DNA from: Prevotella sp.
GTDB lineage: Bacteria; Bacteroidota; Bacteroidia; Bacteroidales; Bacteroidaceae
Length of the DNA stretch: 47,799 nt
NCBI GenBank assembly: GCA_017619755.1
Contig: JAFZRU010000044.1
Location: 1-47,799, forward strand
Direction of reading: 5' to 3'
Shown here: positions 361 to 22,183 of the stretch, in pieces
Layout: every line of letters starts with the position of its first letter
Position numbering within the stretch: the first letter of the stretch is position 1
The notes under the pieces: generated by a model
Seen by the model: the letters and a program-made list of their open reading frames with translations, nothing else
Database searches by the model: none
What the model was told of the DNA's origin: nothing
Made by a program: the position numbers and the translations under genes

Positions 361-391
361 CTTGTTTTCTCCCGAAAAAGTATTATCTTTG
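361..391 (+). promoter_or_regulatory. Bacteroidota-type promoter of the DUF234 ATPase gene
   Basis: TTG at 362-364, a 19-nt spacer and TATCTTTG at 384-391 match the -33/-7 pattern of Bacteroidota sigma-ABfr promoters. Transcription would begin near 398, which supports the ATG at 410 over the earlier in-frame start at 362. Confidence 0.55.
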
Positions 392-409
392 TGGCGTGAA
401 TCAAAATTA

Positions 410-1840
410 ATGGATGCCATGCTAATAGGTCGAGAAAAAGAAAAACAAGTATTACAGAATGCACTCTACGAAGAGTACTCGCAATTCATTGCCGTATATG
501 GAAGGCGTCGTGTCGGTAAGACTTTTCTAATCAGAGAAACCTTTGAAAACCGATTCGACTTCCAATTTACCGGTGCTGCAAATTTGACTTCAAGAAAGCA
601 GTTGGTGCGTTTCCGTCGTGCGCTCAAAGAACATGGGCAGAAAGATACTCCGGAACTAACCAATTGGGGCGATGCTTTCAGTGAACTCAAACGATTCATT
701 ATGGGGCTGTCTGAAGGCAAAAAGGTTGTTTTCCTTGACGAGCTTCCATGGATGGATGCACCACGCTCTGGATTTTTATCAGAGTTGGAATCGTTTTGGA
801 ATGGATGGGCATCTGCACGAAAAGATATTGTTTTTGTGGTTTGCGGTAGTAGCACCTCATGGATGGTGAAGAAAATCATTAAGAATAAAGGTGGATTGCA
901 CAATCGTCTGAACCACCGTATTTCCCTCAATCCATTCCCTTTGGGATTATGCGAGAAACTAGCTCAGTCACGAGGTCTTGTGTTGAATCGTAAACAGATG
1001 CTTGAAGCCTATATGATATTTGGCGGTGTACCATATTATTGGAGTTTGTTACAAAAAGGAACTAGCATAACTGCTGAAATTGATAGGTTGATTTTTTCGC
1101 CTAACGGAGAGTTGCATGACGAATTTGAGATGCTATATGCTTCATTGTTCAAAAAAACTGAACCATACATTCGCGTAATTGAGTTATTGGCCAAGAAAAA
1201 GATGGGCATGACTCGACAAGAGTTGTTGGTGGCAGGAAAATTTGAAGACAACGGAGCATTCTCTGACATTCTGAAAGATCTGGAGTGGTGTGGCTTTATT
1301 CGTAGTTACACTATGATGGGGTATAGGACAAAATCGGATATTTTCCAGTTAATAGACCATTATACATTATTCTATTACGAATACATTTATGGAGTACGTC
1401 AAGGTTCAAACTATTGGAAATCAATGTTGGGTACGCCGAAGTATAACACTTGGTGCGGCTTGGCATTTGAGCGCACTTGCCTATGGCATGTTGACCAGAT
1501 TAAAAAGAAACTTGGTATCAGCGGAATATTGACAAATGAATATGCATGGCGTTGCTTGCCAGATGAGAACATCGGCAGACCAGGAGTTCAGATAGATCTG
1601 CTTATAGACCGTAGCGATGGAATAATTGATGTGTGCGAAATGAAATACTCGAAGGATTCATACACCATCACTTCTGATTATTCAGATGAACTTGCCCGCA
1701 AACGAAATGTGTTCCAGACTGTAACTGGCACAAAAAAAGCTATTCATTCCATTATGGTTACTACCTATGGCCTAACTCGGAATGAATACTGGGGAGACAT
1801 TCAGGCAGAAATACAACTGGACGATTTGTATGAACTATAA
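410..1840 (+). CDS. AAA-type ATPase with C-terminal DUF234 (archaeal ATPase family)
   Basis: A 476-residue cytoplasmic protein. The N-terminal half is a P-loop ATPase: Walker A GRRRVGKT begins at residue 31 and Walker B VVFLDELPW has D110-E111. The C-terminal part fits DUF234, which resembles PD-(D/E)XK nucleases; D396 in QIDLLID and E410-x-K412 in CEMKYS are the expected metal-site residues. Such proteins are common in archaea and anaerobic bacteria. Their role is unclear, though the fold suggests ATP-driven action on nucleic acid. The ATG at 410 is preferred because the promoter overlaps the longer start at 362. The gene is AT-richer than the carbohydrate genes that follow and sits between a possible IS end and a broken gene, which suggests an acquired accessory segment. 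Family assignment is firm; function is unknown. Confidence 0.85.
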   Translation: MDAMLIGREKEKQVLQNALYEEYSQFIAVYGRRRVGKTFLIRETFENRFDFQFTGAANLTSRKQLVRFRRALKEHGQKDTPELTNWGDAFSELKRFIMGLSEGKKVVFLDELPWMDAPRSGFLSELESFWNGWASARKDIVFVVCGSSTSWMVKKIIKNKGGLHNRLNHRISLNPFPLGLCEKLAQSRGLVLNRKQMLEAYMIFGGVPYYWSLLQKGTSITAEIDRLIFSPNGELHDEFEMLYASLFKKTEPYIRVIELLAKKKMGMTRQELLVAGKFEDNGAFSDILKDLEWCGFIRSYTMMGYRTKSDIFQLIDHYTLFYYEYIYGVRQGSNYWKSMLGTPKYNTWCGLAFERTCLWHVDQIKKKLGISGILTNEYAWRCLPDENIGRPGVQIDLLIDRSDGIIDVCEMKYSKDSYTITSDYSDELARKRNVFQTVTGTKKAIHSIMVTTYGLTRNEYWGDIQAEIQLDDLYEL

Positions 1841-7868: not shown

Positions 7869-9806
7869 ATGAAAAAAATCAAAACTATCGCCACCCTTGC
7901 CTTGGCAGCGGCTCTCGCCATGCCGGCCATGGCACAGCGACAACTTACCGTCCAGGCCAACAAGCCCGGGGCGGTCATCCAACCCACCATGTACGGCATC
8001 TTCTTCGAGGACATCAACTTCGGTGCCGACGGAGGACTGTATGCCGAAATGGTGCAAAACCGCTCTTTTGAGTTCCCCAACCGCCTCATGGGATGGGAGG
8101 TCTTCGGAAACGTGGACCTTCGCGACGAGCGTCCGGCATTCGCCAACAACCCGCACTATGTGGCCGTCACCGACCCGGGACACGCTCACAAGCGTTCGGG
8201 AATAGAGAACAGGGGCTTCTTCGGCATGGGATTCAAGAAGGACCTGAGATATGACTTCTCCGTGTATGCCCGTCTCCACGATGCCGGAAGCAAGCCGGCA
8301 CGCATCAGGGTGGAGCTGGTCAACTCGCGCAACGGTGTCATCAAGAGCGAGACGGTGAACATCAACAGTCGCGAATGGAAGAAATACACCTGCTCCATCA
8401 CGCCCAACATCACCGACCCCAAGGGACTGATGAGAATCTTCCTCGAAGGAACGGTTGGCGTGGACCTCGACCACGTGTCGCTCTTCCCCTCCGACAACTG
8501 GAACGGCATGCGTGCCGACTTGGTGAAGGACTTGGAGGACCTCCATCCCGGCGTCTTCCGCTTCCCGGGAGGATGCATCGTGGAAGGCACCGACCTGGCT
8601 ACCCGCTACCAGTGGAAAAACTCCGTGGGGCAGGTGGAAAACAGGCCGCTCAACGAGAACCGCTGGAACTACACCTTCCCGCACCGCATGTACCCCAACT
8701 ATTTCCAAACCTACGGCATGGGGTTCTATGAGTTCTTCCTCCTCTCAGAGAAAATCGGAGCCGACCCGCTGCCCGTGGTGAGTTGCGGACTGGCTTGCCA
8801 GTACCAGAACGACGACATCAAGGCGCATGTGGCACTCGACCAGATGCAGCCTTATATCGACGACGCCCTCGACCTCATCGAGTTTGCCAACGGTGGCACC
8901 GACACCAAGTGGGGAAAGCTGAGGGCCGACATGGGGCATCCCGCTCCCTTCAACCTCAAGCAGATCGGCGTGGGCAACGAGCAGTGGGGTCCTCTCTACC
9001 CCGAGCGTCTCGAACTCTTCGTCAAGGCCATACGTGCCAAATATCCCAACATCCTCATCTGCGGCAGCAGTGGACCGTTGGCCGAGGGCAACGACTTCGA
9101 CTATGGGTGGAAGGAGATGAAACGGCTGAAGGTGGACTTGGTGGACGAGCATTACTACAAGCCACCGCAGTGGTTCTTCGAGAATGCAGGACGCTACGAC
9201 AACTACGACCGCAAGGGACCGAAGGTCTTCGCTGGCGAGTATGCCGCCCATGGCAGGGGCGCCCGCGAGGTGAACAACTGGGAGGCAGCCCTCTCCGAGG
9301 CCGCCTTCATGACCGGACTGGAGCGCAACGCCGACGTGGTCTATCAGGCCACCTACGCTCCGCTCTTCGCCCATGTGGAGGGATGGCAGTGGAAACCCGA
9401 CCTCATCTGGTTTGACAACCTCACCTCGGCTCGCACGCCCAACTGGTATGTGCAGATGCTCTACGGCACCAACAAAGGCACCAACGTGCTCAACCTCACC
9501 GAGGACAAGAAGCCGGTGGAGGGCAAGGACGGGCTGTATGCCTCCGCCGTCTATGACAAGGACAGCAAGGAGTATATCGTGAAGCTTGCCAACGCCGCCG
9601 ACCAGAGCCAGAAGGTGGTCGTCACCTTCAAGGGACTGAAGAAAGTGGGAGCCGCCAAAGGCACCATCCTCACCGGCAACCTCGACATGGAGAACCTCGT
9701 GGGACGCCCGGAAACCATCAAACCCACCACGGTCAACCTGCAAGGCAGTGGCAACACCCTCACCATCGACGTGCCAAGCAAGGCCTTCATGGTCGTCAAG
9801 TTCTGA
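7869..9806 (+). CDS. GH51 alpha-L-arabinofuranosidase, secreted
   Basis: A 645-residue protein with signal peptide MKKIKTIATLALAAALAMPA followed by MAQ. It opens with the carbohydrate-binding-like region seen in larger GH51 enzymes (FFEDINFGADGGLYAEMVQN near residue 45), then a TIM barrel and a C-terminal beta-sandwich. The acid/base is E371 in IGVGNEQWG and the nucleophile is E457 in FAGEYAAH, with YQATYAPLF and LIWFDN also typical. It releases terminal alpha-L-arabinofuranose from arabinan, arabinoxylan or arabinogalactan. It follows the GH2 gene by 38 nt and probably shares its transcript. A few GH51 members are endoglucanases, but this motif set matches arabinofuranosidases. Confidence 0.9.
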   Translation: MKKIKTIATLALAAALAMPAMAQRQLTVQANKPGAVIQPTMYGIFFEDINFGADGGLYAEMVQNRSFEFPNRLMGWEVFGNVDLRDERPAFANNPHYVAVTDPGHAHKRSGIENRGFFGMGFKKDLRYDFSVYARLHDAGSKPARIRVELVNSRNGVIKSETVNINSREWKKYTCSITPNITDPKGLMRIFLEGTVGVDLDHVSLFPSDNWNGMRADLVKDLEDLHPGVFRFPGGCIVEGTDLATRYQWKNSVGQVENRPLNENRWNYTFPHRMYPNYFQTYGMGFYEFFLLSEKIGADPLPVVSCGLACQYQNDDIKAHVALDQMQPYIDDALDLIEFANGGTDTKWGKLRADMGHPAPFNLKQIGVGNEQWGPLYPERLELFVKAIRAKYPNILICGSSGPLAEGNDFDYGWKEMKRLKVDLVDEHYYKPPQWFFENAGRYDNYDRKGPKVFAGEYAAHGRGAREVNNWEAALSEAAFMTGLERNADVVYQATYAPLFAHVEGWQWKPDLIWFDNLTSARTPNWYVQMLYGTNKGTNVLNLTEDKKPVEGKDGLYASAVYDKDSKEYIVKLANAADQSQKVVVTFKGLKKVGAAKGTILTGNLDMENLVGRPETIKPTTVNLQGSGNTLTIDVPSKAFMVVKF

Positions 9807-9855
9807 CATGTTCCCCGACACAAGCCTTGTTTCTACATAAAAGGGCTTGAAATCA

Positions 9856-9907
9856 CCTCCCGCACCGATAACGGAAGCCGTCTGGCAAACCGTCACGATG
9901 CGGGAGG
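9856..9907. terminator. GC-rich stem between GH51 and GH43 genes
   Basis: CCTCCCGCA at 9856-9864 pairs perfectly with TGCGGGAGG at 9899-9907. The 34-nt interior contains weaker GACGG/CCGTC-like pairing. Only a short T run follows, so it may be a weak terminator or processing site that separates expression of the double GH43 gene from the upstream operon. Confidence 0.4.
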
Positions 9908-9934
9908 ACTTTTCCAAATCAAACGACATACCGC

Positions 9935-12082
9935 ATGAAATACATCTTATTCTTGGTCGCATTGTTTGCCGCATGGGCAACAACAGGAGAGGCTAAAAAA
10001 CAAAAACTGCCTTCGGAGAAGGACATGGGTGCCTATCTCTTCACGTATTTCAACGACCCGACGCACTCGCTGTTCATGGCCATCAGCTACGACGGCTATA
10101 CTTTTACCGCTGTCAACGGCAACAAACCGGTCATTGCCGGAGATTCCATCGCCGAACAGCACGGCATCCGCGACCCGCACATCTACCGTGCACCCAACGG
10201 GAAGTTCTATATTGTCATGACCGACTTGCACGTGTTCGGCAAGCAGAAAGGGCTGCGCATCTCACAATGGGAGAGGCCGCAGAAATATGACTGGGGCAAC
10301 AACCGAGGACTGGTGCTGATGGCTTCCGACGACCTGATTCATTGGACGCATCATGAGGCCCGCATCGACAAGCTTTTTCCTGAGAAATTCGGCGATTTGG
10401 GATGTGCCTGGGCACCGCAGACCATTTGGGACCCTGCTGTCAACAAGCCGATGGTGTATTTCACCATCCGCCAGCAACCAGGTGAGCGCACGAAACTATA
10501 TTACAGCTACGCTGACGAAGCCTTCACCACCTTGGAGACCGAACCGCAATTGCTCTTTGAATATCCCGATGAGAACATCCAAACCCTCGATGCCGACATC
10601 TGTCCGATGCCGGACGGTCGATACTTCATGACTTATGTGGCACAGGAGAGTCCAGGCGGCATCAAGTATATGATTTCCGACCGTATCAACCAGTTCAACG
10701 ATTATCATCCCGAACAGATCGACAGTGAAAGCCGAGGGTGCGAGGCCCCCAACGTATGGAAGCGAATCGGGGAGAACAAATGGGTCGTCATGTACGACAT
10801 CTACAGCGTCAATCCCCACAACTTCGGATTCGTGGAAACCAGCGACTTCAAGACCTTCACACCACTCGGACGTTTCAACGAGGGGGTGATGAAAGCCACC
10901 AATTTCGTCTCTCCCAAGCATGGGTCTGTCATACACATTACCAAGGCCGAGGCCAAGCGCCTCAAACGCTACTGGGCCAGCCAGCCGGAGTGCACCACGA
11001 TCAGGAACGGTGAGTTGTGGCGAGACGACAGCGGCCGGCACATCAACGCCCACGGTGGAGGTATCATGAAGTACGGCGACACCTATTATTGGTTTGGTGA
11101 GCACAAAGCCGACACCACATCGTCGGCAATGGTCGGAGTGATGTGCTATGCCTCGAAGGACCTCGTGAACTGGAGGAACCTGGGAGTGGCGCTGTCGGTT
11201 TCCGACGAGAGAGGCTCAGACATCGAGCGCGGTTGCGTGCTGGAGCGTCCGAAGGTGATCCATAATCCTGTGACGGGTAAATTCTGCATGTGGTTCCACC
11301 TGGAACTGAAGGGTCGGGGCTACTCGGCCGCCCGCTATGGCGTGGCTGTCAGCAACCGTCCGGAAGGGCCTTATAAGTTCCTCTATTCCCAGCGTGCCAA
11401 TCCGGGTACCTATCCTGTTGTACCAACTGCCGACGGGCGGGGAACAAACCCGTTGAGCCAACAAGAGATGGCTGTCTTGGACACGCTCAACTTGGAGAAT
11501 TTCAAGGAAGAGTGGACACCCGGTTGGTGCAAGGCGATCACGCAGGGACTTTTCCTGAAGCGAGACTTCGGCACAGGACAGATGTCCCGCGACATGACGC
11601 TGTATGTCGATGACGATGGAAAAGCATACCACATCTTCTCTTCCGAGGACAATCTGACCATGCACATCGCAGAACTGACCAACGACTACCTGCACCATTC
11701 GGGCCGCTATACCCGCATGGCACCCGGCGGCCAAAACGAGGCTCCGGCCATCTTCAAGAAAGATGGTACCTACTGGATGATTACATCGGGCTGCACTGGT
11801 TGGAATCCCAACGAGGCCCGCATGTTTTCCGCACCCTCCATCTGGGGACCCTGGACGCAGCATCCCAATCCCTGCCGAGGACCCAAGCAGGAGCTTACAT
11901 TCGGAGGACAGTCAACCTATATCCTTCCCGTCGGCGAACACTTTGTCTTCATGGCCGACATCTGGCGCCCCTGGCACCCGAGTGACGCCCGCTACATCTG
12001 GCTCCCCATCGAGTTTGAGGAGGGAAAACCAGTCGTCAGGTGGCGTGACGCATGGAATATCAGTGAATTGGGGCAAAAATGA
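9935..12082 (+). CDS. Tandem GH43-GH43 protein, secreted
   Basis: A 715-residue protein with an N-terminal signal peptide (YILFLVALFAAWATTGEA) and two GH43 five-bladed propellers. Domain 1 (about 25-345) has the family RDP motif in HGIRDPHIY and a candidate general acid in SRGCEAPNVWK. Domain 2 (about 365-712) begins INAHGGGIMKYGDTYYWFGE and contains VLERPKVIHNP, the signature of the GH43_24/34 group that includes exo-beta-1,3-galactanases; in GH43_24 enzymes the usual catalytic base Asp is known to be missing. The fusion could remove arabinose and then galactose from arabinogalactan. It lies 128 nt after the GH51 gene behind a GC stem, so it may be transcribed separately. Subfamily and linkage are by-eye judgements. 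Confidence 0.8.
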   Translation: MKYILFLVALFAAWATTGEAKKQKLPSEKDMGAYLFTYFNDPTHSLFMAISYDGYTFTAVNGNKPVIAGDSIAEQHGIRDPHIYRAPNGKFYIVMTDLHVFGKQKGLRISQWERPQKYDWGNNRGLVLMASDDLIHWTHHEARIDKLFPEKFGDLGCAWAPQTIWDPAVNKPMVYFTIRQQPGERTKLYYSYADEAFTTLETEPQLLFEYPDENIQTLDADICPMPDGRYFMTYVAQESPGGIKYMISDRINQFNDYHPEQIDSESRGCEAPNVWKRIGENKWVVMYDIYSVNPHNFGFVETSDFKTFTPLGRFNEGVMKATNFVSPKHGSVIHITKAEAKRLKRYWASQPECTTIRNGELWRDDSGRHINAHGGGIMKYGDTYYWFGEHKADTTSSAMVGVMCYASKDLVNWRNLGVALSVSDERGSDIERGCVLERPKVIHNPVTGKFCMWFHLELKGRGYSAARYGVAVSNRPEGPYKFLYSQRANPGTYPVVPTADGRGTNPLSQQEMAVLDTLNLENFKEEWTPGWCKAITQGLFLKRDFGTGQMSRDMTLYVDDDGKAYHIFSSEDNLTMHIAELTNDYLHHSGRYTRMAPGGQNEAPAIFKKDGTYWMITSGCTGWNPNEARMFSAPSIWGPWTQHPNPCRGPKQELTFGGQSTYILPVGEHFVFMADIWRPWHPSDARYIWLPIEFEEGKPVVRWRDAWNISELGQK

Positions 12083-12296
12083 TGGTAACTTTTGCGATAC
12101 AATTATGGAGTGCCCTAACGGGCAGAACCAACGGTCGCGGATGCAAAGAAAGACGCAACCACTAATAGACGTAAATCAAATCATACAAATCTGTTCAAAT
12201 CAAACAAATCAAGCCAACTTGTTACTAAGCAACGTCATCATATCAGGAATATATGTCCACAGTTTGTTTCACATTGTTTTTTTAACTTTTTCCACT

Positions 12297-13235
12297 ATGA
12301 ATATACCAGCAAAATTCAGAGAATATATTTGGCTTGTGAACACTATTCGTAAAGCCAAACGCATAACATTTGCTGAAATTAACGAGAAATGGTTGGAATC
12401 TGAATTGAGTGGTGGTATAGAGATGGCACGAGCCACTTTCAACCGCCATAGGATTGCAATAGAGGACATGTTCGGTCTCATTATCGACTGCGACCGAAAC
12501 AAAGGCTATAAATATTTTATCAGTAACGAAAAAGTGCTGTATGAAGATAGTATTCAGAATTGGATGCTATCTACATTGTCTGTCAACAACATCATTTGTG
12601 AAAGTTTGTCGTTACAGAAAAGGATATTGTTGGAAACTATTCCTTATGAGGGCGATTTTCTGCCTATGGTAATAGAAGCGATGAAGCGGAATGTGCGCAT
12701 TGCTATCAAGTATAAGAAATATGGGGATGAGGAACCGCGAAAGTTGAATTTTGAACCCTATTGCTTGAAAATGTTCCGGCAACGATGGTATGTATTAGGT
12801 CATTTCCATAGGAATGTGATTGACGGACCAGATATAGATTACTTCGGTATGTTCTCCTTTGATCGTATCTTGGAGATGTCAATAACAGATATCAAGTTCC
12901 AAATAGACCCAGGCTTTGATGCAGAAGATTTCTTCAGTGAATGTTATGGTGTGCTGGTTAATGATGACACTCAACCAATAAAAGTCATAGTCCGAATCTT
13001 TGACTACGAACAGTATTATGTGAAGGATTTGCCCATTCACCATAGCCAGCATGAAATAGGATATGGGGATGATTATACCGACTTTGAACTATATCTGAGA
13101 CCAACACCTGATTTCATCCGCCATCTTATTGGTTTTGGGAATCAATTACAAGTTATTTCGCCTGAATGGCTGGCAAAAGAGGTTTGCCAGGAGCATTACG
13201 ACACCGTCTGCTTGTATGAAGAAATGGATGAATAG
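12297..13235 (+). CDS. WYL-domain transcriptional regulator
   Basis: A 312-residue protein. The N-terminal 75 residues form a helix-turn-helix region (ITFAEINEKWLESELSGG then ARATFNRHRIAIEDMFGL), followed by a WYL domain with the diagnostic KMFRQRWYVLGH and a C-terminal WCX-like part ending SPEWLAKEVCQEHY. WYL regulators often control defence and DNA-damage loci and can sense nucleic acid ligands. The ATG at 12297 is chosen over the in-frame upstream start at 11943 because the longer form overlaps the end of the GH43 gene and lacks family resemblance. The gene is clearly AT-richer than the hydrolases before it. A palindromic operator follows its stop, so it probably regulates the downstream genes. 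Confidence 0.85.
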   Translation: MNIPAKFREYIWLVNTIRKAKRITFAEINEKWLESELSGGIEMARATFNRHRIAIEDMFGLIIDCDRNKGYKYFISNEKVLYEDSIQNWMLSTLSVNNIICESLSLQKRILLETIPYEGDFLPMVIEAMKRNVRIAIKYKKYGDEEPRKLNFEPYCLKMFRQRWYVLGHFHRNVIDGPDIDYFGMFSFDRILEMSITDIKFQIDPGFDAEDFFSECYGVLVNDDTQPIKVIVRIFDYEQYYVKDLPIHHSQHEIGYGDDYTDFELYLRPTPDFIRHLIGFGNQLQVISPEWLAKEVCQEHYDTVCLYEEMDE

Positions 13236-13249
13236 ATGAATATTTCTTC

Positions 13250-13289
13250 TTGTTGTCTCACGATTTGAGACAACAAGGCTTTATCTTTG
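13250..13289 (+). promoter_or_regulatory. Operator-promoter O1: perfect palindrome over a -7 box
   Basis: TTGTTGTCTCA at 13250-13260 and TGAGACAACAA at 13266-13276 are perfect 11-bp arms around CGATT. The -7 element TATCTTTG lies at 13282-13289, so the palindrome covers the -33 region and binding there would block transcription. The same core recurs at 14389-14405 with the same distance to its -7 box. The WYL protein encoded just upstream is the natural candidate to bind it. Confidence 0.65.
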
Positions 13290-13327
13290 CGGCTGTTATT
13301 TATTTGTTCAATTAAAATTTCAAGTAT

Positions 13328-13858
13328 ATGAGTAAGTATGACAATATGACCGAAGAGCAATGGATTTCCGCCTTCGACGAGTTCGTTGAGAAATACAACG
13401 CGCCCGACCCAGAACCCATCAAGGTCTTGAACCTCATCATGAGAAAAGAGTTCGCAGAAGAAATCCTCCGTGGCACAAAGAAGGTAGAGATACGTGACTA
13501 CTCCGACTTCTATTACAAACGGCTCACCGACAAGGTGGTTGACAAATGGATGACCGAACACCGCGACGACGAGGGTATGGACAAAGAGGCGTTCGATGAG
13601 TTCATGTGCTCGACGCGCCCCGTGGACAGGATACACTTCCACAACTACAACAACTCATGGTTTCTGGATGTCACTGTGATTGAGAACGCATTGATAAGCA
13701 TCACCAGGCAGAATGTAGAGGACCTAAAGCAGAGGTTCAATTGTCATGAATTTGACAAAATTCTCGAAGACTGTGAGCATCGGAACGACGACTCGCGTCC
13801 ACTATTCTATTACTTCGCCATTGGTAAAGTGATAGACACCAATATTGAATTGTCTTGA
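13328..13858 (+). CDS. ASCH/PUA-like domain protein
   Basis: A 176-residue protein. Residues about 32-70 read [20 protein letters not shown] followed by [14 protein letters not shown], the usual opening of ASCH domains, a PUA-like fold that binds RNA or modified nucleotides. The hydrophobic strands [15 protein letters not shown] and the C-terminal [12 protein letters not shown] complete a plausible beta barrel. There is no signal peptide or membrane segment. It is the first gene after the O1 operator-promoter, with a leader of about 30 nt, and is followed after 26 nt by an unknown gene that probably shares its transcript. PUA-like folds often sense modified bases in defence loci, which fits the island; the actual ligand is unknown. 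Confidence 0.6.
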
Positions 13859-13884
13859 GTTGAAAATTCTAAAAATCCTGTAAA

Positions 13885-14343
13885 ATGTCTGACTACTTAT
13901 ACGCCGTTATCCCCTATCAAGGTGGTTCATCTTTTGCTCCTGATGAAGGAGAGACATACGTGTATTGTCCAGAAATACCTGAATTAAAAGGTGTTGACTC
14001 GGAGCTCGTTGAGCCTGATGGCTTGGTATTATTTGCCGACTTCTTGAGGATAAATACTTGTTATCGGCAATCTGTATTCACAGGAAACAGCAATGGATAT
14101 AGTTGGTTACGCGCAGAGATATACAAAATTGCCATGGCGTTAGGAGCAAAAGAAGTATGGTATGTTGCAGAGATGGCGACAGATGAAATGTATAGGAAAG
14201 ATTTCTCATTTGAAAAATGGATTAGAGATTTCAAAACAGGGGAACAGTTTGCAGCTGAACTCACAGTTGGTTGTCTAAAAGAGAACTCAATATGCACCTA
14301 TTATCACGATGACTTCACTGATATTATTTTAGAAAAACCGTAG
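13885..14343 (+). CDS. Hypothetical protein of the WYL/ASCH operon
   Basis: A 152-residue acidic protein that I do not recognise. It opens MSDYLYAVIPYQGGSSFAPD and has a mixed alpha/beta pattern: a helix near 71-90 (WLRAEIYKIAMALGAKEVWY), a second near 110-130, and a C-terminal YYHDDFTDIIL. There is no signal peptide, membrane helix or obvious catalytic motif. It lies 26 nt after the ASCH gene on the same strand and is probably co-transcribed from the O1 promoter. Codon use is AT-rich like the rest of the island. A partner role to the ASCH protein is inference from position only. Confidence 0.6.
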   Translation: MSDYLYAVIPYQGGSSFAPDEGETYVYCPEIPELKGVDSELVEPDGLVLFADFLRINTCYRQSVFTGNSNGYSWLRAEIYKIAMALGAKEVWYVAEMATDEMYRKDFSFEKWIRDFKTGEQFAAELTVGCLKENSICTYYHDDFTDIILEKP

Positions 14344-14388
14344 TGAATTGCATTGAGAAAGATAAAAATGGAAAAAGCATAAGCCTGG

Positions 14389-14421
14389 CTCACGATTTGA
14401 GACAGCAGGCATCTAACTTTG
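14389..14421 (+). promoter_or_regulatory. Operator-promoter O2: second copy of the palindromic core
   Basis: GCTCACGATTTGAGACA at 14389-14405 repeats the core of O1 (CTCA-CGATT-TGAG with the GACA extension). The -7 element TAACTTTG is at 14414-14421. In both copies the distance from CACGATT to the -7 box is 23 nt, so the element is conserved as a unit. The outer arms are less regular here. It faces an apparently non-coding stretch, not a gene start. Confidence 0.6.
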
Positions 14422-14427
14422 CATCTT

Positions 14428-14690
14428 CAATTAGTCATATTCAAACTGCACCATTTGATATGCCAAGATAGCGTCAGGCTGGCGTGATAATTTCAAGCAG
14501 ACTTTCTTGGGTGTGATAAGAGTTTTGCTTGTTCCATCGAGTCTCCCACTGCCGCCAGCTATCGGGAGATATAGAGAGGTTACGCCCCCGCTTCTTTTGA
14601 TAGCTGGTTGGATGAAAGAGTAGTACCTTGACTTCGGGTTAGCAAATCATTCGGCGGTTTCTTTTTCATTAAAAAAATGAAACTTTTTAA
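14428..14690 (+). ncRNA. Candidate structured RNA downstream of operator O2
   Basis: No convincing gene lies between O2 and the next start at 14772. A transcript from O2 would begin near 14428. It contains a perfect 9-bp inverted repeat, CCAGCTATC (14555-14563) and GATAGCTGG (14599-14607), enclosing a 35-nt purine- and C-rich loop. It could end at TTTCATT/AATGAAA (14664-14682) followed by CTTTTT, a terminator-like hairpin. The alternative is decayed sequence: the minus strand holds an open frame without a start codon across 14431-14646. An RNA product is inference. Confidence 0.35.
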
Positions 14691-14720
14691 TCAGTAGAAC
14701 AATGATACAATTATATTTTG

Positions 14721-14728
14721 TATTTTTG
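14721..14728 (+). promoter_or_regulatory. Likely -7 box for the T5orf172/nuclease pair
   Basis: TATTTTTG at 14721-14728 is followed by GCAG, as in many promoters in this window, and lies 43 nt before the ATG at 14772. No good TTTG is seen at the -33 distance, so it may be weak or activator-dependent. Confidence 0.4.
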
Positions 14729-14771
14729 CAGAAAGAAAAGAATAAGCGTTGACTACAAATAACAATAAATA

Positions 14772-15164
14772 ATGTGTAGGTTTACAAAAATCTCAATCGT
14801 CTACGTCTTTGGATCAGAACAATGCGAAGACAAGTATTTCAGCGACCAGATGATTTCGCTTAAGGACAATGAATGGGTCAAAATTGGTGAGACAAAATAC
14901 AAGGGGGAACTTGATTCTCTTCTTGCAGATTCAGGCGTGGTTATAAAGGCTGCTATGAAAAGGATAGAAGGCGAGACCCGCACGGGCATCCCTTTCCCGT
15001 CAAGAATCTTTGATTTGTTCATTTTCCCTTATAAGGTGAAAACGGACAACAAAATCAGGACAAGGCTTTGCCAAGACTTGTATGAAATAGATAATAGCAA
15101 GCGAATGAATCGTGAACGTAGAGAAGACAAATCGAGTATGTACTTTGTCATTAATAACGTGTGA
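14772..15164 (+). CDS. T5orf172-type (GIY-YIG superfamily) small protein
   Basis: A 130-residue protein. IVYVFGSEQ near residue 10 followed by WVKIGETKYKGELDSLL near residue 35 resembles the GIY...YIG pair as found in the T5orf172 family, and RTGIPFPSRIFDLFIFPYK near residue 75, followed by a helical DNKIRTRLCQDLYEI, matches the rest of that fold. A conserved Arg and a Glu in these helices would be catalytic if it is an active nuclease; a DNA-sensing or targeting role is also possible. It ends 22 nt before the large PD-(D/E)XK gene, so the two are probably one transcript and may act together. Assignment is by motif only. Confidence 0.55.
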   Translation: MCRFTKISIVYVFGSEQCEDKYFSDQMISLKDNEWVKIGETKYKGELDSLLADSGVVIKAAMKRIEGETRTGIPFPSRIFDLFIFPYKVKTDNKIRTRLCQDLYEIDNSKRMNRERREDKSSMYFVINNV

Positions 15165-15186
15165 ACCATTTATTTCAAATGAAGTT

Positions 15187-16758
15187 ATGAAAAAGATTTT
15201 AAAAACTAACTGGGAACGCTACAAGAACAGCATTGAAGGCAAGGAGGTAATTGCTTTGTTCAACCATCTGGCAGAGCCTGAGTGTACGGCAGAGGAAATG
15301 CTGGCAGTCATCAAACGCTTTAATCCTGTGTTTGCAAAGAATACTACTGCTAAAGAAGATGCACTCAATATAGAAGCTATTGTAAATTACAATAAGGTGA
15401 TAAAGGAGAATGTTCCCAATAACGAGGGAGACAGGGAAGACTTCAATTATGGCGATTTCTTTGGGTGGCTTACACATTGTATGGCAGTAAAAGACGAGAA
15501 CACTGACTTGTTTGATGCCCCACAAATTGGCTTTAAAAGGATTATCGGATATAATGTGTTCCTATCGGTAGCACTTAGTGCAAACATGCCGGAGTATTTT
15601 ATCCCTAACTTATTTGCTATGCAATTTGTCTACTTCAAGAAGTTTGCAGAAAAGTATGAATTAGACATTCCTGATATGCCTTTGCGTTCTGACTATCGCA
15701 ACAGATGGCTTTATTACATTCACATGTGTAATGCCATTGACACTTTCGCCACTGATAATGATATTCAAGACTTTGGGGAATTGTGTGCTTTCTTATTTGA
15801 CTATGAACTTACAAATATCAAGGAGGAAATGGCTGTCGAGCATGACAAGCCAATGCCTAAGGTTCCAGAGCAGGCTTGGATTCTTGTCGGCAATTATGGA
15901 GATGGAGAAAAAACGATGGAGGAGGGCGTATGGCAGTCAAACCAGTTTACATGTAAAGGCGATATCATGCTTTTCTATGAGAAATCTCCGGTCAAAAAAT
16001 TAAATTCTGTTTGGACAGCTATTGAAGATGGTTTTATTGACCCATTTGGCCCATATTACTCATATTCTATAATTGGTAATAAGATTGAAATACCCAATGA
16101 GCAAGCTGTTACGTTCGAAGACTTCAAGAACAGTGAACACTTCAAGGTTGAGAATCGTGGAAGAGAAGGGAATTTCGTTAGTAAGAATTTTCAGGACGTG
16201 AGCGGATGGGCTGTTACCTCTTCTGACTATAAAGAGATAAAAAGGATGCTGGAGGCCAAAGGATTTGACACATCAGCTCTTCCGTCGCTATATGAGCCAA
16301 AGAAACTTATTGACATAAACATCGAATTAGAGGAGGATGTCTCTGAGAAACTGCTTATTCCACTGCTCGAAGAAATGGGATGGAAACGAGACGAAGATTT
16401 CAAGGCAGAGGTGGAGTTCCCTGCTGGCAGAGGAACTACTGGGCATAAGATGGAAAAAAGGCCTGACTTCTGTCTGCACTTGACGGGTAAAGAAAAAGAC
16501 CTTGGGGCAAAAGTGGTGATAGAAGTAAAGCTCTGGATGAAGAACATTGAAGAGATAGAAGCCAATTACTATCAGGGGCTTTCTTATGCCAAATGGGGTA
16601 ATGCCCAAGTGCTCGTATTGTGTGACAAAAACCAAATAAGGGTTTATGAGCGCAATAAGAAGGGAGATTTTGACATTAATAAGTGGACAAGATTCTTTTG
16701 GGAGCAAATGGAGATATTGGAGAATTTCAATAAGTTAAAAAGATTGTTAGACATTTAA
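15187..16758 (+). CDS. Multidomain PD-(D/E)XK nuclease with possible EVE/PUA-like domain
   Basis: A 523-residue cytoplasmic protein in three parts. Residues 1-225 are a helical domain I do not recognise. Residues about 231-355 start AWILVGNYGDGEKTMEEGVW and run through CKGDIMLFYEKSPVKKLNSV to GWAVTSSDYKEI; the order W, G-W, KGD-x-x-x-FY recalls EVE/PUA-like domains, which can bind modified bases. Residues 365-523 match the N-terminal nuclease domain of type I restriction R subunits: D427 in KRPDFCLHL and E446-V-K448 in VVIEVKLWM form the PD-(D/E)XK site, followed by NYYQGLSYAKW and QVLVLCDKNQIRVYE. There is no helicase. A modification-dependent (type IV-like) nuclease is the working idea. The ATG at 15187 is preferred over the upstream GTG at 15112, which overlaps the preceding gene. 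Confidence 0.65.
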   Translation: MKKILKTNWERYKNSIEGKEVIALFNHLAEPECTAEEMLAVIKRFNPVFAKNTTAKEDALNIEAIVNYNKVIKENVPNNEGDREDFNYGDFFGWLTHCMAVKDENTDLFDAPQIGFKRIIGYNVFLSVALSANMPEYFIPNLFAMQFVYFKKFAEKYELDIPDMPLRSDYRNRWLYYIHMCNAIDTFATDNDIQDFGELCAFLFDYELTNIKEEMAVEHDKPMPKVPEQAWILVGNYGDGEKTMEEGVWQSNQFTCKGDIMLFYEKSPVKKLNSVWTAIEDGFIDPFGPYYSYSIIGNKIEIPNEQAVTFEDFKNSEHFKVENRGREGNFVSKNFQDVSGWAVTSSDYKEIKRMLEAKGFDTSALPSLYEPKKLIDINIELEEDVSEKLLIPLLEEMGWKRDEDFKAEVEFPAGRGTTGHKMEKRPDFCLHLTGKEKDLGAKVVIEVKLWMKNIEEIEANYYQGLSYAKWGNAQVLVLCDKNQIRVYERNKKGDFDINKWTRFFWEQMEILENFNKLKRLLDI

Positions 16759-16762
16759 CGGT

Positions 16763-17782
16763 ATGGCAAAAGATTTAACGACATCACAGATTGAGCGGCA
16801 GAACGTACTGAACAACAATGTGGCTCTACCAAGGATTCAGGAGGCTTTAGATGTGAAGCTCTTGGAGTTCGAGGGTCGCTATGTGCTGACAAAGCAGATG
16901 GTGGCGGATTATTATGATGTGGATATACGAACGGTTGAGAATTGCCTGAGTGCGAACGAAGATGAACTTCGACATAATGGTTACTTTTTATGTCGGGGTA
17001 ACAGCCTGAAAGAGTTTAAGTTACGTTTTGCTCCCGAAATCGATTTCGGGAGCAAAACCACGCAATTAGGACTTTTTGATTTCCGTTCTTTTCTAAACCT
17101 CGGTATGATACTTACCACAAGCGAGAAAGCAAAGTGGTTACGTGCCCGAATACTCGATATTGTGATTGCCACTATCAACGAGAAGACGGGTGGCGGCACG
17201 AAGTATATTAACCGCAGAGACAGAGAGTATTTGCCTGCTGCCATTCAGGAAGAAAACTACCACAAGAACTTGACGGAGGCTGTCAACAAATATGTAGACG
17301 GGCATAAAACGTACAAGTATGCGCAAGTGATGGATGCTATCTACAAGGCAGTGTTCTGCGAGAAAGCCAAGGAGTATCGCAAACTGCTCGACCTGAGTGC
17401 CAAGGACAATGTGCGCAGGACGCTATATGCCGAGGTGCTGAGGGTGGTATCATCATTCGAGAATGGTGTGGCCTTTGAAATTACCTGTCAAGCTAAAGAA
17501 CGTGGTGTGCTGACTGTGGCAGAGGTAAGTGAAATCTGTAATCAGATGGCAGAGCATCCTCTGCAGGCTCCATACATCTATGATGCCCGTCAAAAAATGG
17601 CTTCGCGCGACTTGGCTTTCCGTGATGTGTTCCATGGAAATATCGCAGAGTATCTGAAAGCCGTTACGCCAGAAGAGTTCGACAAGTTTATTGGAAGCAA
17701 GTCGCTCGACTTTGATGCGATTATGGCCCTGCCAGAGAATCAAGAGGTACTGAAAATCTTAAAGCAGGCAGAAGATGAGTGA
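16763..17782 (+). CDS. RhuM-like DNA-binding protein, likely Doc antitoxin
   Basis: A 339-residue protein. LTKQMVADYYDVDIRTVENC near residue 45 looks like a helix-turn-helix, and LGLFDFRSFLNLGMILTTSE followed by KAKWLRARILDIVI near 105-140 is the conserved RhuM-type core. The C-terminal half is helical, and its end (about 290-339) could neutralise the toxin. It overlaps the doc gene by 8 nt (doc ATG at 17775, stop at 17780-17782), the usual antitoxin-first order. RhuM-like genes beside Fic/Doc genes are common in Bacteroidota. It starts only 4 nt after the nuclease gene, so nuclease, antitoxin and toxin may be one transcript. Unusually, codons 88-99 coincide with a perfect 34-bp palindrome. 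Confidence 0.7.
   Translation: MAKDLTTSQIERQNVLNNNVALPRIQEALDVKLLEFEGRYVLTKQMVADYYDVDIRTVENCLSANEDELRHNGYFLCRGNSLKEFKLRFAPEIDFGSKTTQLGLFDFRSFLNLGMILTTSEKAKWLRARILDIVIATINEKTGGGTKYINRRDREYLPAAIQEENYHKNLTEAVNKYVDGHKTYKYAQVMDAIYKAVFCEKAKEYRKLLDLSAKDNVRRTLYAEVLRVVSSFENGVAFEITCQAKERGVLTVAEVSEICNQMAEHPLQAPYIYDARQKMASRDLAFRDVFHGNIAEYLKAVTPEEFDKFIGSKSLDFDAIMALPENQEVLKILKQAEDE
17025..17058. repeat. Perfect 34-bp palindrome inside the antitoxin gene
   Basis: The arm GTTTTGCTCCCGAAAT (17025-17040) is followed by CG and then its exact reverse complement (17043-17058). It encodes residues 88-99, RFAPEIDFGSKT, in frame. A perfect palindrome of this length in coding sequence is unlikely by chance and could be a protein-binding site, or could fold into a strong mRNA hairpin. 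Confidence 0.9.
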
Positions 17783-18230
17783 GATTCTGTACATCACATG
17801 GGACGAGCTGCTGCATGTCTACGAGAAGACCGTGGATGATAGTGGCGGTGGTTTTTCCGGTATCAGAGATCGTGAGCGGTTAGAGTCTGTACTTGAATTC
17901 GTGCAGAACGACCTATACTATCCTACGTTTGAGGACAAACTGACATTCTTGGTGTCACGCATCTGCACAGGCCATCTGTTTGATGACGGGAACAAACGTA
18001 TGTCGCTGACGTTAGGAGTGTATTTCCTTCATAAAAACGGACGATTCTGGGCTGCGACAACATTTATGACACACATGGCAGCCATCATTATGCACTTGGC
18101 AGCAGGGCATATTGACGAAGAGCTGTTGGGGCGCATCATCCCTCCTGTCATCAAAGGTGAAGACTTCAGTGAAGAACTGAAAATTGACATTGCCCATGCT
18201 ATGGAAAGCGGAGAATTGTTTAGTGAGTGA
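17775..18230 (+). CDS. doc: Doc-type Fic family toxin
   Basis: A 151-residue protein with the Doc form of the Fic motif, HLFDDGNKR, starting at H67. Doc toxins differ from AMP-transferring Fic enzymes in having Lys near the end of the loop (GNK here, ANK in phage P1 Doc). P1 Doc phosphorylates EF-Tu and halts translation, which is the likely activity. The N-terminal ITWDELLHVYEKTVDDSGG and GIRDRERLESVLEFVQNDLY are typical of the family. Length is normal and all key residues are present, so the gene looks intact. It overlaps the preceding RhuM-like gene, the presumed antitoxin. Last gene of the AT-rich island. Confidence 0.85.
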   Translation: MSEILYITWDELLHVYEKTVDDSGGGFSGIRDRERLESVLEFVQNDLYYPTFEDKLTFLVSRICTGHLFDDGNKRMSLTLGVYFLHKNGRFWAATTFMTHMAAIIMHLAAGHIDEELLGRIIPPVIKGEDFSEELKIDIAHAMESGELFSE

Positions 18231-18398
18231 TTTCTATCCCAATCCAACCTAATCATCTTAATTATGATGTGAAGTGAATTTTAGTTCGCCTAATTGTGGA
18301 GATGGTTAGTGCATCATGGTTGCCGAAGCCGCAATTTCTCGTTGTAAGAAGTCTCCCAATTATTTTAAGTTACGAAAGTTTTTAAGGTAATTCAGAAT

Positions 18399-18437
18399 AG
18401 CAAAGAAGGCGGCTCACAAGGAGCCGCCTTCTTTGCT
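18399..18437. terminator. Long GC-rich hairpin between convergent genes
   Basis: AGCAAAGAAGGCGGCTC (18399-18415) pairs perfectly with 18421-18437 around a 5-nt loop. It lies between the converging doc and minus-strand small-protein genes and probably ends transcription from one or both sides, although neither side has a long T run. Confidence 0.55.
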
Positions 18438-18454
18438 TGGTGCGTGAGAAGGGA

Positions 18455-18625
18455 TTATTTATCCCTTGAAGGCTTGCCGAACAGATCATCCACGACATCG
18501 TCGAATTCGTAGGTCACCTGGTTGGCCAACTGACCGCTGTCACCGCCGCTTGCCACGATGGGGAGGCTCTGCATCAGTTCAGGGCTTTGCAGAATTTTCG
18601 TGTTCGGTTGAATGTACTTTCTCAT
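18455..18625 (-). CDS. 56-residue peptide with double-glycine motif
   Basis: ATG at 18623-18625 and TAA at 18455-18457 give a 56-residue product beginning MRKYIQPNTKILQSPELMQS and continuing LPIVASGGDSGQ. An upstream GGAG, 6 nt before the ATG, supports translation. The first 28 residues resemble a leader ending in GG, like those cut by C39-type peptidase transporters (compare ELxxIxGG), and leave an acidic 28-residue tail. Small proteins opening MKKYxxPN are frequent in Prevotella and are normally unannotated. It follows the 1,067-residue secreted protein gene by 26 nt on the same strand and is probably co-transcribed. No processing transporter is in view. Peptide export is inference; a membrane or regulatory role is not excluded. 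Confidence 0.6.
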   Translation of the reverse strand: MRKYIQPNTKILQSPELMQSLPIVASGGDSGQLANQVTYEFDDVVDDLFGKPSRDK

Positions 18626-18651
18626 AATGTTTTCTCCTTTTTTTAGTTAAT

Positions 18652-21600
18652 TTATTTGATGACAACTTTCTTTCCGTTCATGATATACACACCCTTGTCC
18701 AGCTTGCCGTTGACGCGCACGCCGGAGATGGTATAGACCTCGTCGTTGTTCTCCGTGGAGATGGTGGCGTTGCTGATGCCGTCGGCCTCATCGAAGAGGA
18801 GATAGAAGTCGGCAAGCGATTGGGTGGAAGGCACATCGAGGTATGCCTTATGGGCGCCATTTGTGATGCTTTCACCACCAGCCACTTGATAGTAGAAGCC
18901 CACTTTGCCATTCTTGGTGGAGAGCATATAGTACTTGTGGCCACTCTCTGCAAAAGTTTTCTCATCGTCGGAGCCTTTAAGTTTGTTTTCGCCAACAGGT
19001 GTTGCATTTTCTATGACATCGAACTTGTATGTACCGGCAGGTCCCTCTATAATGACACCGGTTCTTAAAGGAATGGTTTTCACTTCGGCCAGTGCCAATT
19101 TGTTTCCAACGATATCACTCACAACGTATGCCTTTACATCATTTGGAACGGCGAGGTCCATTCCTCCATAATAGATGGTGGCCCATCCCACATCTGTAAT
19201 GGTCACCTCCACGGGTTCATAATACATGAGTGTGAAGTTGTTGAACAGTGTCCAGCAGTCCCAGATGTAATTCGGCTTGTTGATGGTGATGGTGAGTTTG
19301 CCATCTTCGCCAACGTAGGTGTAAAGTTCGTTGAGGTATTTGCCATCTTCGAATTTTTCCACGGCTTGACCAGTATTGTTGGGATTGTAGTTGCTATCTG
19401 CAGCATCAAACCAGGAAGCGAACCGCACCTGCTCGCCATTGGCCACCATGTTGGAACTCACAAGGTTGTAACCTTTCTGTCCAAGAGAATAAGATGTGGA
19501 ATTATTGGCTCTTCTCTCAAATCCGTTGACGGAGAGTTTGTAGATGCCTTGGGGAAGGTCTGTGATGGTCTGGGTCCAAGAACCTGTTGCATTCCATGCC
19601 TCACAGAAATCATCTCCGTATGCAGGTTGGTTGTTCTGGTGTCTGACTTCAGAGAATGTCCAGTCGCCTGCGTTTCCACTGAATGTGGCGGTACCTATAT
19701 AGTCGGTCATATCGACAGGAAGCATGGTTTTGAGATAGGTGTCCAAGTCTCCTTCAGCCTTTGCAGCAGCCATTACAGAAACCTTGTTTGCTGCAGGATA
19801 TGCATCCACGATGGCATCATGGTCGGCTTTGTTCATGATTGTCCATACAGTGGCGTCGGCAGCGGAAGTTGTGGTATGCAGATATTCTCCAAGATTTCCA
19901 AGGCTATGGGTGGCATAGAGAGAACCATCCATATTACACAATTTATAACCATCGGTGGCTGTTACAAATTTCCATCCAGTGGAGGCATTGTCTGTGTATA
20001 TACTTTCTTTCTTATCTCCTGTGATGAAAAGATATACACCAGTCCAGTCGATGAATTCAATGCTTCCTGCACCATCGGCTCCGGTTTTCCAATTGAATGG
20101 CACACCATATTTGTCGGCTACTGCTTCTGTACCCCAATTACCACCTCTGGCAAGGAACAATTTCGCATTGGCGTCGTAAAGGTAGTAAAGGCCATCGGCA
20201 ATATTCGGAGTATTGATTGCAATGGTGATTGCCTCGTTGACAGCTTGTCCTTCAAAACCAACCACGCCGGCGGGCAAAGTCAGAGTGTATGAAGATGCAG
20301 GTTGGAGTTGTACGTTGGAGAATGTGGCTGTTACTTTGTTTCCATTAAGTGTCAGGTCTCCTTCTGCCACGACGGTTTCACCATTCTTCAGTTGTGCCTT
20401 TCCGCTTCCAATGAGCGCAAAGGTTGCATTTGGGTCATCGGTGAATGGGTTATAGGTAATCTCCCATGTCGTAAGTGCACTTACGTAATTGCCGTCATTG
20501 ATGTTTAATGTTGGCTCCCCTAACTCATACGTATAGCTCAATGGTGTGAATGTGAGCGTTTGTGCGGTGGAGGATTTGAAATAATAGGTCCCCGCCGTGA
20601 GTGCCATGGTTGAGGTGAACTGCCCATTCACATTACTGGCTTCGGAGAGGACAATGGAGCCGTTGGTGGTATATACCACATTACTCAAATCTGTTCCAGC
20701 CACAACTTCATAATCCCCTGCGGTTGGTATTTCCACGGCATACCAAGTGTCCGCCAGTGCCTGGTCGCCACTCGTGAAGTCTTCAGCCACGACAGCTATG
20801 GTCGGCTCTCCACAGAAATAGAGTTTGAAGTTGTCAAAGTGAATCCAGTTCGCAGATCCCCCTGATTTTCCTGCTGTAATGGTGAGATCCTCATTTTCTC
20901 CGATAATGCAGATCAATTCATAGTCTTTATCGGTTGTCCAAGTGGCGGTTTTTTCATTCAGACTGACGTAGGTGCCATCGCCGCCCAAGTTGGCTGTCAG
21001 TTTGTAATAACCCTGTGGCAGGCCGGTCAATGTCTGGGTCATGCTACCATCGGGAAGAGCACCATCTGTAGAAGGTTGCCATTTCTCTGCATAAAAGCCA
21101 CCCACTTTGAAGTCTTGATTGTTGCCTTGTGTGCCGAAATACCCATCAGGAGAGACCGTCCATCCCGTCATGTTGCGATATTCAAATCCAGGATTGGTAA
21201 TGTAGCCGGTCACATCAAATGGGGCTTCCAACGATGCTGGCAAATCATTGTTGATGAGTTCGAATTGGCCTACGATGCACCAGGAGCGCGCTTCATCAAA
21301 CGTGCCATCAACACCAATCTCTATAGGGGTGTTGGCTTCATTGATGGTGAAATCAATCGTATGACGGTACATTTTTGAGTCGAAGACGTTTGCACCTTCT
21401 GCTTGATTGTTGGCGAAGCCGGAGGCGGGGATGCTTCGCAAGGTTTTCAAAAGGACACTTTTGTCACCAGCTCTCAAATACGCCAATGACTTGCTGTTAT
21501 GTTCTGGGTCGTCAGCATCGCCTTGGCGGAAGAACGAGTAGTTTACCAATGTGTAATGTCCTGCGGGCAGGGTGATGGTCTGCTTCATCGAATATTCAGT

Positions 21601-22111: not shown

Positions 22112-22116
22112 CATCG

Positions 22117-22179
22117 TGTTTTTCATAGTATTAGATTTAAGGTTAACAAAGGTTGGAGTACAGCGGTACTCCTTTTTTT
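22117..22179 (+). ncRNA. Candidate short sRNA of about 60 nt
   Basis: From the predicted start near 22117 the transcript carries an unstructured AU-rich segment (TAGATTTAAGGTTAACAAAG at 22131-22150) and then a strong intrinsic terminator: GGAGTAC (22155-22161), loop AGCG, GTACTCC (22166-22172) and seven T (22173-22179). A promoter followed within 60 nt by a terminator and no reading frame is the layout of an independent small RNA. I have an uncertain memory of similar single-stranded segments before terminators in other Bacteroidales, so it may be a conserved RNA; this is not verified. Confidence 0.55.
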
Positions 22180-22183
22180 GTGC

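Follow-up and report, generated by a model that had tools for sequence, protein, structure and literature searches.

A palindrome-promoter element that accompanies a WYL regulator and precedes defence genes in a Prevotella island and in related genomes

We describe here a short palindrome-promoter element that occurs twice in an island of seven genes at positions 12,297 to 18,230 of a Prevotella sp. contig (JAFZRU010000044.1, assembly GCA_017619755.1), of which 47,799 nucleotides (nt), the whole stretch referred to below as the window, were analysed. The element, or operator for short, consists of the palindrome TGTCYCA-n5-TGRGACA, a gap of 10 nt and a promoter box. It keeps this geometry in other genomes, is co-distributed with close relatives of the WYL transcription factor encoded by the first gene of the island, lies beside many of these WYL genes, and stands in front of recognised defence genes including those of several CRISPR-Cas types. 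A regulon that joins the WYL protein, the operator and defence genes is in our view highly probable, and the island itself is probably one unit of such a dispersed antiphage regulon, run by the WYL protein via the operator. Loci compared carry L-numbers and genomes compared G-numbers.

Results

The element is a 37-nt repeat with copies at 13254 and 14386 and the core GTCTCACGATTTGAGAC, and it was not mentioned in the original prediction made for this DNA. The first copy (13254..13289, plus strand) reads TGTCTCA-cgatt-TGAGACA, then 10 nt and the -7 box TATCTTTG; its palindrome starts at 13255, 19 nt past the WYL gene, and it ends 38 nt before the next gene. The second copy (14386..14421, plus strand; palindrome at 14387) carries TGGCTCACGATTTGAGACA and, 10 nt after the core palindrome, the -7 box TAACTTTG, and heads a stretch that had been described as non-coding. 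Two palindrome matches with up to 3 mismatches were found in 0 of 100 shuffles of the window. Within the genome of origin, which is 86% complete, the palindrome occurs at the two island places only when up to 1 mismatch is allowed, and a reversed control pattern had no match in that genome at the same threshold. The geometry was analysed in a sample free of circularity, namely loci fetched by protein similarity only, in which the palindrome was present near WYL genes and near relatives of the nuclease-like protein of the island (P0005, the 15187 open reading frame (ORF)). This sample held 26 distinct palindromes, two of them from the window. The motif TAnnTTTG, which we take to be the Bacteroidetes -7 box, lies exactly 10 nt past the palindrome in 17 of the 26; within 40 nt it is not seen at a different offset, and the remaining nine have a variant box ending in TTTG at the same offset. 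With the usual spacing of such promoters, the palindrome would overlap the -33 region and no TTTG would be present at the -33 position.

A scan for palindrome plus box (up to 3 mismatches) in 399 genomes of the family returned 125 sites in 64 genomes, compared to 5 matches for the reversed pattern; 25, 22, 33 and 45 sites had 0, 1, 2 and 3 mismatches, respectively. Conservation extends to positions outside the search pattern. Among sites with up to 2 mismatches, and with related genomes weighted equally, a T stands directly before the palindrome (position 0) in 79/79, a C after the box (position 36) in 73/79 and an A at -14 in 67/79, within an A-rich tract 12-15 nt upstream. The same scan across 393 genomes of the order gave 23 sites (two being those of the window) in 20 genomes versus 9 reversed matches; therefore, the operator is near background outside the family, except in G229 and perhaps G151. 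Three of the non-window sites had up to 2 mismatches, and two of these lie in the G229 locus, which also has a WYL gene and a P0005 relative. An exact-pattern search of viral contigs did not find the operator.

The WYL protein (P0001; 12297..13235, plus strand) is predicted to regulate the island as well as the operator family, and has a winged helix-turn-helix (HTH)-WYL-WCX arrangement suggested by Pfam and by profile comparison to the PDB. Its WYL label was confirmed by Pfam (36.6 bits, cut-off 21.8), as was a WCX domain (32.9 bits, cut-off 23.9). The N-terminal part gave no Pfam HTH match, and its assignment as an HTH is suggested by its position and conservation; the most conserved stretch of the subfamily, TFNRHRIAIEDMFGLII, starts there at residue 47. 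To relate the protein to the element, we defined close WYL proteins as those at least 50% identical to P0001 among the matches listed, a scope that holds for all such counts below. The element was present in 38 of 41 genomes with a close WYL compared to 26 of the 358 others (Fisher 2e-32). When labels were shuffled within genera, the mean was 19.5 and the maximum 30 in 200,000 draws, against the 38 observed. The operator lies within 200 base pairs (bp) of 19 of the 47 close WYL genes, where chance would give about 4e-5 per gene. Direct inspection of 30 WYL genes, the window's included, placed a site up to 200 bp downstream in 12 and up to 120 bp upstream in four (L061, L062, L076 and L081), and letter-shuffled downstream flanks never fell below 6 mismatches in 600 trials. 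No operator is found upstream of the window's own WYL gene, the best match having 10 mismatches. The sites also reach beyond the neighbourhood of the regulator: 36 of 85 sites in close-WYL genomes, spread over 24 of the 38 genomes, are not within 15 kb of the WYL gene on its contig. Separately, a related palindrome-promoter with 3 mismatches lies at 3501 of L212 (G764), 26 bp downstream of a WYL gene encoding a 41%-identical protein, hinting at a wider family of WYL-operator pairs.

We then looked at the genes behind the element. We identified 114 distinct sites, counting the two of the window, across 96 of 106 merged regions; a downstream gene was called for 86 sites, and it starts between -15 and 70 nt from the box in 43 cases. 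Several CRISPR-Cas types are found here: Cas9 in L150 and L188 by profile recognition, and in 3/52 members of set A5 (candidates L188, L191 and L201), Cas12a in L173, Cas3c of type I-C in L176 and L185, and Cas6b with Cas8b of type I-B in L204. The box lies 22 nt from the Cas3 gene (L176), 40 nt from that of Cas6, 24 nt from a 196-amino-acid (aa) ORF preceding Cas12a, and 217-375 nt from cas9 (L150, L188, L191 and L201). All four Cas9 sites are on contigs other than that of the close WYL gene, and the one in G450 is more than 26 kb from either contig end. Other defence-type proteins behind the operator include a DrmD-like helicase (L129), an AbiU-like protein (L119) and a UvrD helicase as the second gene (L180). 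Among 91 operator-linked proteins, HIRAN was found in five, and GmrSD, AIPR, SIR2 and ADP-ribosylglycohydrolase in one each. At E<=1e-10 these 91 proteins matched 188 PADLOC families, whereas a control set of 91 proteins, drawn from arbitrary parts of those genomes, matched 37; these figures count families rather than proteins, as several helicase models match the same protein.

Several of these downstream regions deserve mention in their own right. The cas9 leader is longer than that of Cas3 or Cas6 and could contain a small RNA, for example tracrRNA. A 544-aa reverse-transcriptase protein at 3595-5226 of L168, 59 nt behind the operator, is a candidate defence reverse transcriptase. Alike small stand-alone proteins of 115-122 aa are frequent first genes (L121, L123, L143, L169, L194, L196 and L203); they start 30-47 nt after the box, and the L121 copy matches HIRAN at 4e-13. 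An unrecognised protein of 266-269 aa (MGWDVVEIGL...) follows either an ASCH gene or the operator itself in L130, L195 and L137, and its L137 copy had no Pfam match.

To assess whether the island's own genes are linked to the element elsewhere, the six proteins other than the WYL regulator were compared by tblastn to the operator loci and to 15 random control loci. All six genes recur downstream of the operator in other genomes, on the operator strand, and no match was found in the 15 control loci. Homologues of the ASCH-like protein, 57-68% identical, are downstream of the operator in L130, L195, L189 and L137, at 74 bp in L130 and L195 compared to 73 bp in the window. The unknown protein encoded by the 13885 ORF matches part of a 377-aa protein (68% identity over 152 aa) whose gene stands fourth in an operator-headed operon of L147. 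The 14772 ORF product, a GIY-like protein (P0004), recurs in L145, P0005 in L137 and L135, and the RhuM-Doc pair in L137 and, directly behind the operator, in L147. As exceptions, the operator lies downstream of a P0005 relative in L179, and short Doc matches of 41-48 aa occur in L186 and, on the opposite strand, in L146. The converse test gave a weaker result, with the operator found within 1.5 kb upstream of P0005 in three of seven close P0005 loci (window, L012 and L014). The original suggestion of a defence-type island whose genes belong together is strengthened by the recurrence of six genes behind one operator and by RhuM directly following P0005 in 6/7 loci; the island is nonetheless not one fixed multi-gene system. 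The island looks like a mosaic of modules beside one WYL regulator, namely the ASCH-like and unknown proteins, an RNA with a GIY-like remnant, and nuclease-RhuM-Doc. A single new multi-gene system was considered and rejected, since other genomes have the modules separately.

As proposed originally, the island is a compact block of seven ORFs, all on the plus strand. The picture of an AT-rich island between GC-rich flanks is accurate for one side: GC content is 39-47% over 12,001-18,000 (1-kb windows), compared to 54-60% over 8,501-12,000 on the left and about 46-48% over 18,001-21,500 on the right, so that the contrast is strong on the left only. The first gene behind operator 1 encodes a 176-aa ASCH-like (PUA-like) protein (13328..13858), for which the Pfam ASCH match is borderline (21.0 bits, just below the cut-off of 21.2) and which has the homologues behind the operator described above. 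It is followed by the unknown 152-aa protein (13885..14343).

The supposedly non-coding stretch that comes next contains both the second promoter element and sequence conserved in other genomes. The stretch before the 14772 ORF is 76% identical over 138 nt to L145 and is also conserved with L012 around a hairpin and with L130 at its 5' end. A small RNA is predicted at 14425..14663 (plus strand) from this conservation. It has a conserved 3' hairpin, with a stem at 14607-14614 / 14648-14655 that encloses the conserved word GGTTAGCAAATCAT and is followed by a T-rich run. The 8-bp stem is kept in three sequences, one pair being G-C, G-U or A-U. A covariance model matched 3 of 97 sources, which are the three used to build it, and all three matches lie upstream of a P0004-family gene. 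The next gene starts 351 nt after the -7 box in the window and 330 nt after it in L145. The stretch had no Rfam match at the gathering score, and below it only matches with E>2; single-sequence folding was not exceptional (z of -1.1 for the window, -1.4 for L145 and -2.1 for L130), the RNA core was not found in viral contigs, and no operator was found upstream of the L012 copy. A second -7 box of the Bacteroidetes type, TATTTTTG, stands at 14721..14728 (plus strand), after the RNA hairpin and before the 14772 ORF, and is conserved in L145. As an observation apart, L130 has an operator-headed sequence at 5102-5440 whose first 117 nt are 89% identical to L145 and whose 3' part differs, with a 13-bp closing stem and a T-loop-like GTTCGAATC; a tRNA-like reading of this RNA was dropped, ARAGORN calling none.

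Downstream of the predicted RNA lies P0004 (14772..15164, plus strand), which had been labelled T5orf172-type. This label found no backing, as P0004 has no Pfam or NCBIfam match at E<=1 and its full-length relatives in L145 and L012 have no Pfam match at E<=0.01; by eye, it has a GIY-YIG-like motif. P0004 is 44-50% identical to the L145 and L012 proteins over residues 8-120, and is truncated, being 130 aa long compared to 281-285 aa in these relatives, with the C-terminal half missing; the RNA-GIY module may therefore be decaying in the window.

P0005 (15187..16758, plus strand) is a predicted restriction-type nuclease travelling with RhuM-Doc, made up of an N-terminal domain, a central region and a C-terminal PD-(D/E)XK domain of HsdR_N type. 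The PD-(D/E)XK assignment was upheld by residues E382, D427, E446 and K448, invariant in 21/21 aligned sequences, as are Q463 and Y467, a pattern that we take to be expected of a nuclease of the HsdR_N kind. The C-terminus scored 19.0 bits to HSDR_N_2, under the cut-off of 25, with a weak match to PADLOC MTase_I. The EVE part of the original label could not be substantiated: PF01878 has no match anywhere in the genome at E<=0.1 and residues 225-360 have no PDB profile match to an EVE/PUA fold; to the eye, this region looks EVE/PUA-like. Relatives 63-70% identical were found in six other Bacteroidales loci, from rumen or omasum metagenome-assembled genomes wherever the title tells. RhuM directly follows P0005 in 6/7 close loci, window included, and Doc follows in 5/7; one contig ends first and one locus lacks both. 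Neighbouring genes otherwise vary between these loci. At E<=0.001 P0005 was matched in 11/393 genomes of the order and 19/399 of the family (window included), several of these matches covering the nuclease domain only. In viral contigs three stretches fit a pattern and none was confirmed. P0005 had no match in phages; relatives do exist in some phage set, since PHROG 37753 matches it full length. In plasmids it was matched in two from Deinococcus at 25-27% identity. In one of them (L038, Deinococcus sp. QL22), the 27%-identical relative sits between BREX pglZ/brxL and GTPase genes, with DarT nearby. Such plasmid and phage matches are useful for the defence context and not for function.

The last two genes encode a RhuM-like protein (16763..17782) and a Doc/Fic toxin (17775..18230), both on the plus strand, the start of the latter overlapping the RhuM stop by 8 bp. 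Both labels proved correct, with matches to PADLOC PDC-M59A (1.1e-160) and PDC-M59B (1.3e-59), respectively, nearly full length in each case. The Doc sequence contains HLFDDGNKR, which we take to be the Fic motif. PDC-M59 is RhuM-Doc as a PADLOC phage-defence candidate, and here the pair follows a nuclease gene.

Elsewhere in the window, a low-GC ORF of 492 aa at 362-1840 (plus strand), with the P-loop GRRRVGKT and DUF234-type ATPase-like by eye, marks a second AT-rich patch at the left end. A BTncRNA_FopS Rfam match (77.6 bits) lies at 22116-22182 (plus strand), and another copy stands directly before the WYL gene of L130 (1591-1661).

Discussion

We propose that the WYL protein (12297-13235) would bind TGTCYCA-n5-TGRGACA, over the -33 region and 10 nt upstream of the -7 box, and so would control operator promoters at other loci as well as those adjoining its own gene. 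It may act as an activator of the DriD/PafBC kind, switched on by single-stranded DNA (ssDNA) from phage replication or DNA damage. The output of the island would then be P0005 cutting invading, perhaps modified, DNA, acting with the RhuM-Doc toxin-antitoxin pair, the ASCH protein and the small RNA. Activation by ssDNA rather than derepression is a plausible mode to which we give a little less than even weight. A profile of 24 WYL sequences matched DriD in the PDB at 1.5e-4 to 5e-4, across the WCX part only, PafBC at 5e-4 and CapW at 0.39. The DriD chains comprise 7tzv, 9pfq, 9pfv and 9pga, for which the codes were checked, and presumably also 7u02, 9cu3 and 8tp8. Excerpts of PMC12340889 describe DriD as an activator triggered by ssDNA, whose sites are pseudo-palindromes overlapping a poor -35 at a fixed distance from the -10. 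We prefer activation because the match to DriD/PafBC is the better one and the sites appear to share the anatomy of DriD promoters.

The opposite sign deserves weight, since a repressor, too, could use a palindrome placed across the -33 region. According to excerpts of PMC9122601 and PMC9122588, BrxR and CapW are WYL repressors of BREX and CBASS islands; as here, a winged HTH-WYL regulator stands beside defence genes and the inverted repeat has a 5-bp spacer, and BrxR likewise has two boxes in one defence island and binds in this way (excerpts of PMC9122601). A repressor of this kind on the palindrome would run the same regulon, keeping the island off until infection, and toxic targets such as Doc and the nucleases favour such control. 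On the other hand, the WYL profile is closer to DriD/PafBC than to CapW, whose similarity is not significant, no chain named BrxR was matched at E<=10, the window's WYL gene has no site upstream, and the site, centred near the -33 region and a fixed 10 nt from the -7 box, resembles DriD-activated promoters. We regard repression as possible, if on the doubtful side. As a further difference, the BrxR boxes described in those excerpts of PMC9122601 are in the regulator's own island, whereas here the same site is found at other loci, CRISPR-Cas included.

A different transcription factor could bind the palindrome, the WYL gene co-occurring through shared clustering in defence islands. Such a factor would account for the 26 of 64 operator genomes that have no close WYL. 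It sits poorly with the adjacency of the operator to 19/47 close WYL genes and with WYL loci that, although without ASCH, RhuM or P0005 matches, still have the operator between WYL and Cas12a (L173), Cas3 (L176) or a large gene pair ending in the UvrD helicase (L180), and we consider it unlikely. Slightly less likely still, the element might be a cassette boundary, that is, a shared promoter or recombination site of mobile defence genes with the WYL gene as mere cargo. In favour of this, loci differ in their combinations of modules, many of which keep the element at their 5' end. Against it, genomes with the WYL gene nearly always have the element, within genera too, a palindrome held at a constant spacing from the -7 box is what a transcription-factor site typically looks like, and the window island showed no recombinase gene. 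AT-rich islands that gather defence genes are generally known to be common, but an ordinary island of unrelated genes with no shared control and coincidental repeats was already disfavoured by the window shuffles and the family-wide data, and is very improbable.

Several observations weigh against control of a defence regulon by the WYL protein through the operator, as proposed here. Close WYL proteins are missing from the 26 operator genomes already mentioned, some of whose 3-mismatch sites will be chance and many of which are incomplete, and G453 has eight sites and no close WYL among the matches listed. Conversely, no site falls within 200 bp of 28/47 close WYL genes, and site-WYL distances are shown only as far as contigs reach, because most genomes are fragmented. 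A start within 70 nt of the box is seen for only 43 of the 86 first genes called, many genes behind the operator are unrecognised, and serpin and acyltransferase are among the operator-linked proteins (2/91 each). Since the loci were chosen by the operator, the recurrence of island genes has no matched background beyond the 15 control loci. Four of the seven close P0005 loci (L013, L015, L016 and L017) have no operator within 1.5 kb upstream, the best matches having 8-11 mismatches and L013 offering just 1 kb of upstream sequence; the nuclease cassette is therefore not always under the operator. As for the activator mode, the WYL protein resembles DriD weakly, for the most part within the WCX portion.

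How does the proposed regulon compare to known systems? Excerpts of PMC9122601 and PMC10924106 report WYL repressors of single defence islands and co-localisation of WYL proteins with many defence families. DriD of Caulobacter and PafBC of mycobacteria, the best profile matches, are ssDNA-activated WYL activators (excerpts of PMC12340889 and PMC11804915), and DriD, like the regulator proposed here, has several targets; the targets named there are DNA-damage genes, whereas here they are mostly defence genes. Sll7009 of Synechocystis is a WYL repressor controlling a CRISPR I-D locus, as cited in the excerpted part of PMC9122601; a single CRISPR locus is described there, whereas the operator reported here is found in front of CRISPR-Cas of several types and of other systems. 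In pseudomonads, the Gac/Rsm pathway coordinates many defence elements genome-wide, in the excerpts of PMC11888443 without a DNA-binding WYL protein with one operator. RptR also pairs a conserved regulator with a conserved palindrome at a defence-island promoter, and differs, in the excerpts of PMC12255303, in being a small repressor with a 6-bp TAGCTA site tied to type I restriction-modification. As for P0005, EVE-PD(D/E)XK proteins have been described as a class of predicted type IV restriction enzymes (excerpts of PMC7641849), a possible architecture here; P0005 differs in a middle region unconfirmed as EVE, an extra N-terminal region and its coupling to RhuM-Doc. Among the matches listed from the Creative Commons-licensed PubMed Central literature, we recognised no WYL regulon in which one operator links innate systems with several types of CRISPR, and no Bacteroidota WYL regulon.

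To conclude, the element, its geometry and its association with a WYL regulator bear on the open question of when bacteria switch on many costly immune systems. Known WYL regulators, as far as the excerpted sources go, act on individual islands, on a CRISPR locus or on genes of the DNA-damage response. We put forward tentatively, and with somewhat under even confidence, that the WYL protein is an ssDNA-sensing activator and the single master switch for antiphage immunity in the family, in cis and in trans, with CRISPR-Cas types I-B, I-C, II and V-A, restriction, helicase, reverse transcriptase and toxin-antitoxin systems, AddAB-like nucleases and a new RNA-plus-GIY module as its targets. A sequence-defined regulon that unites CRISPR-Cas and innate systems under one regulator would make this question directly testable. 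Genes of unknown function behind the operator become defence candidates and, if the master switch is real, the operator could be used as bait for undescribed defence genes.

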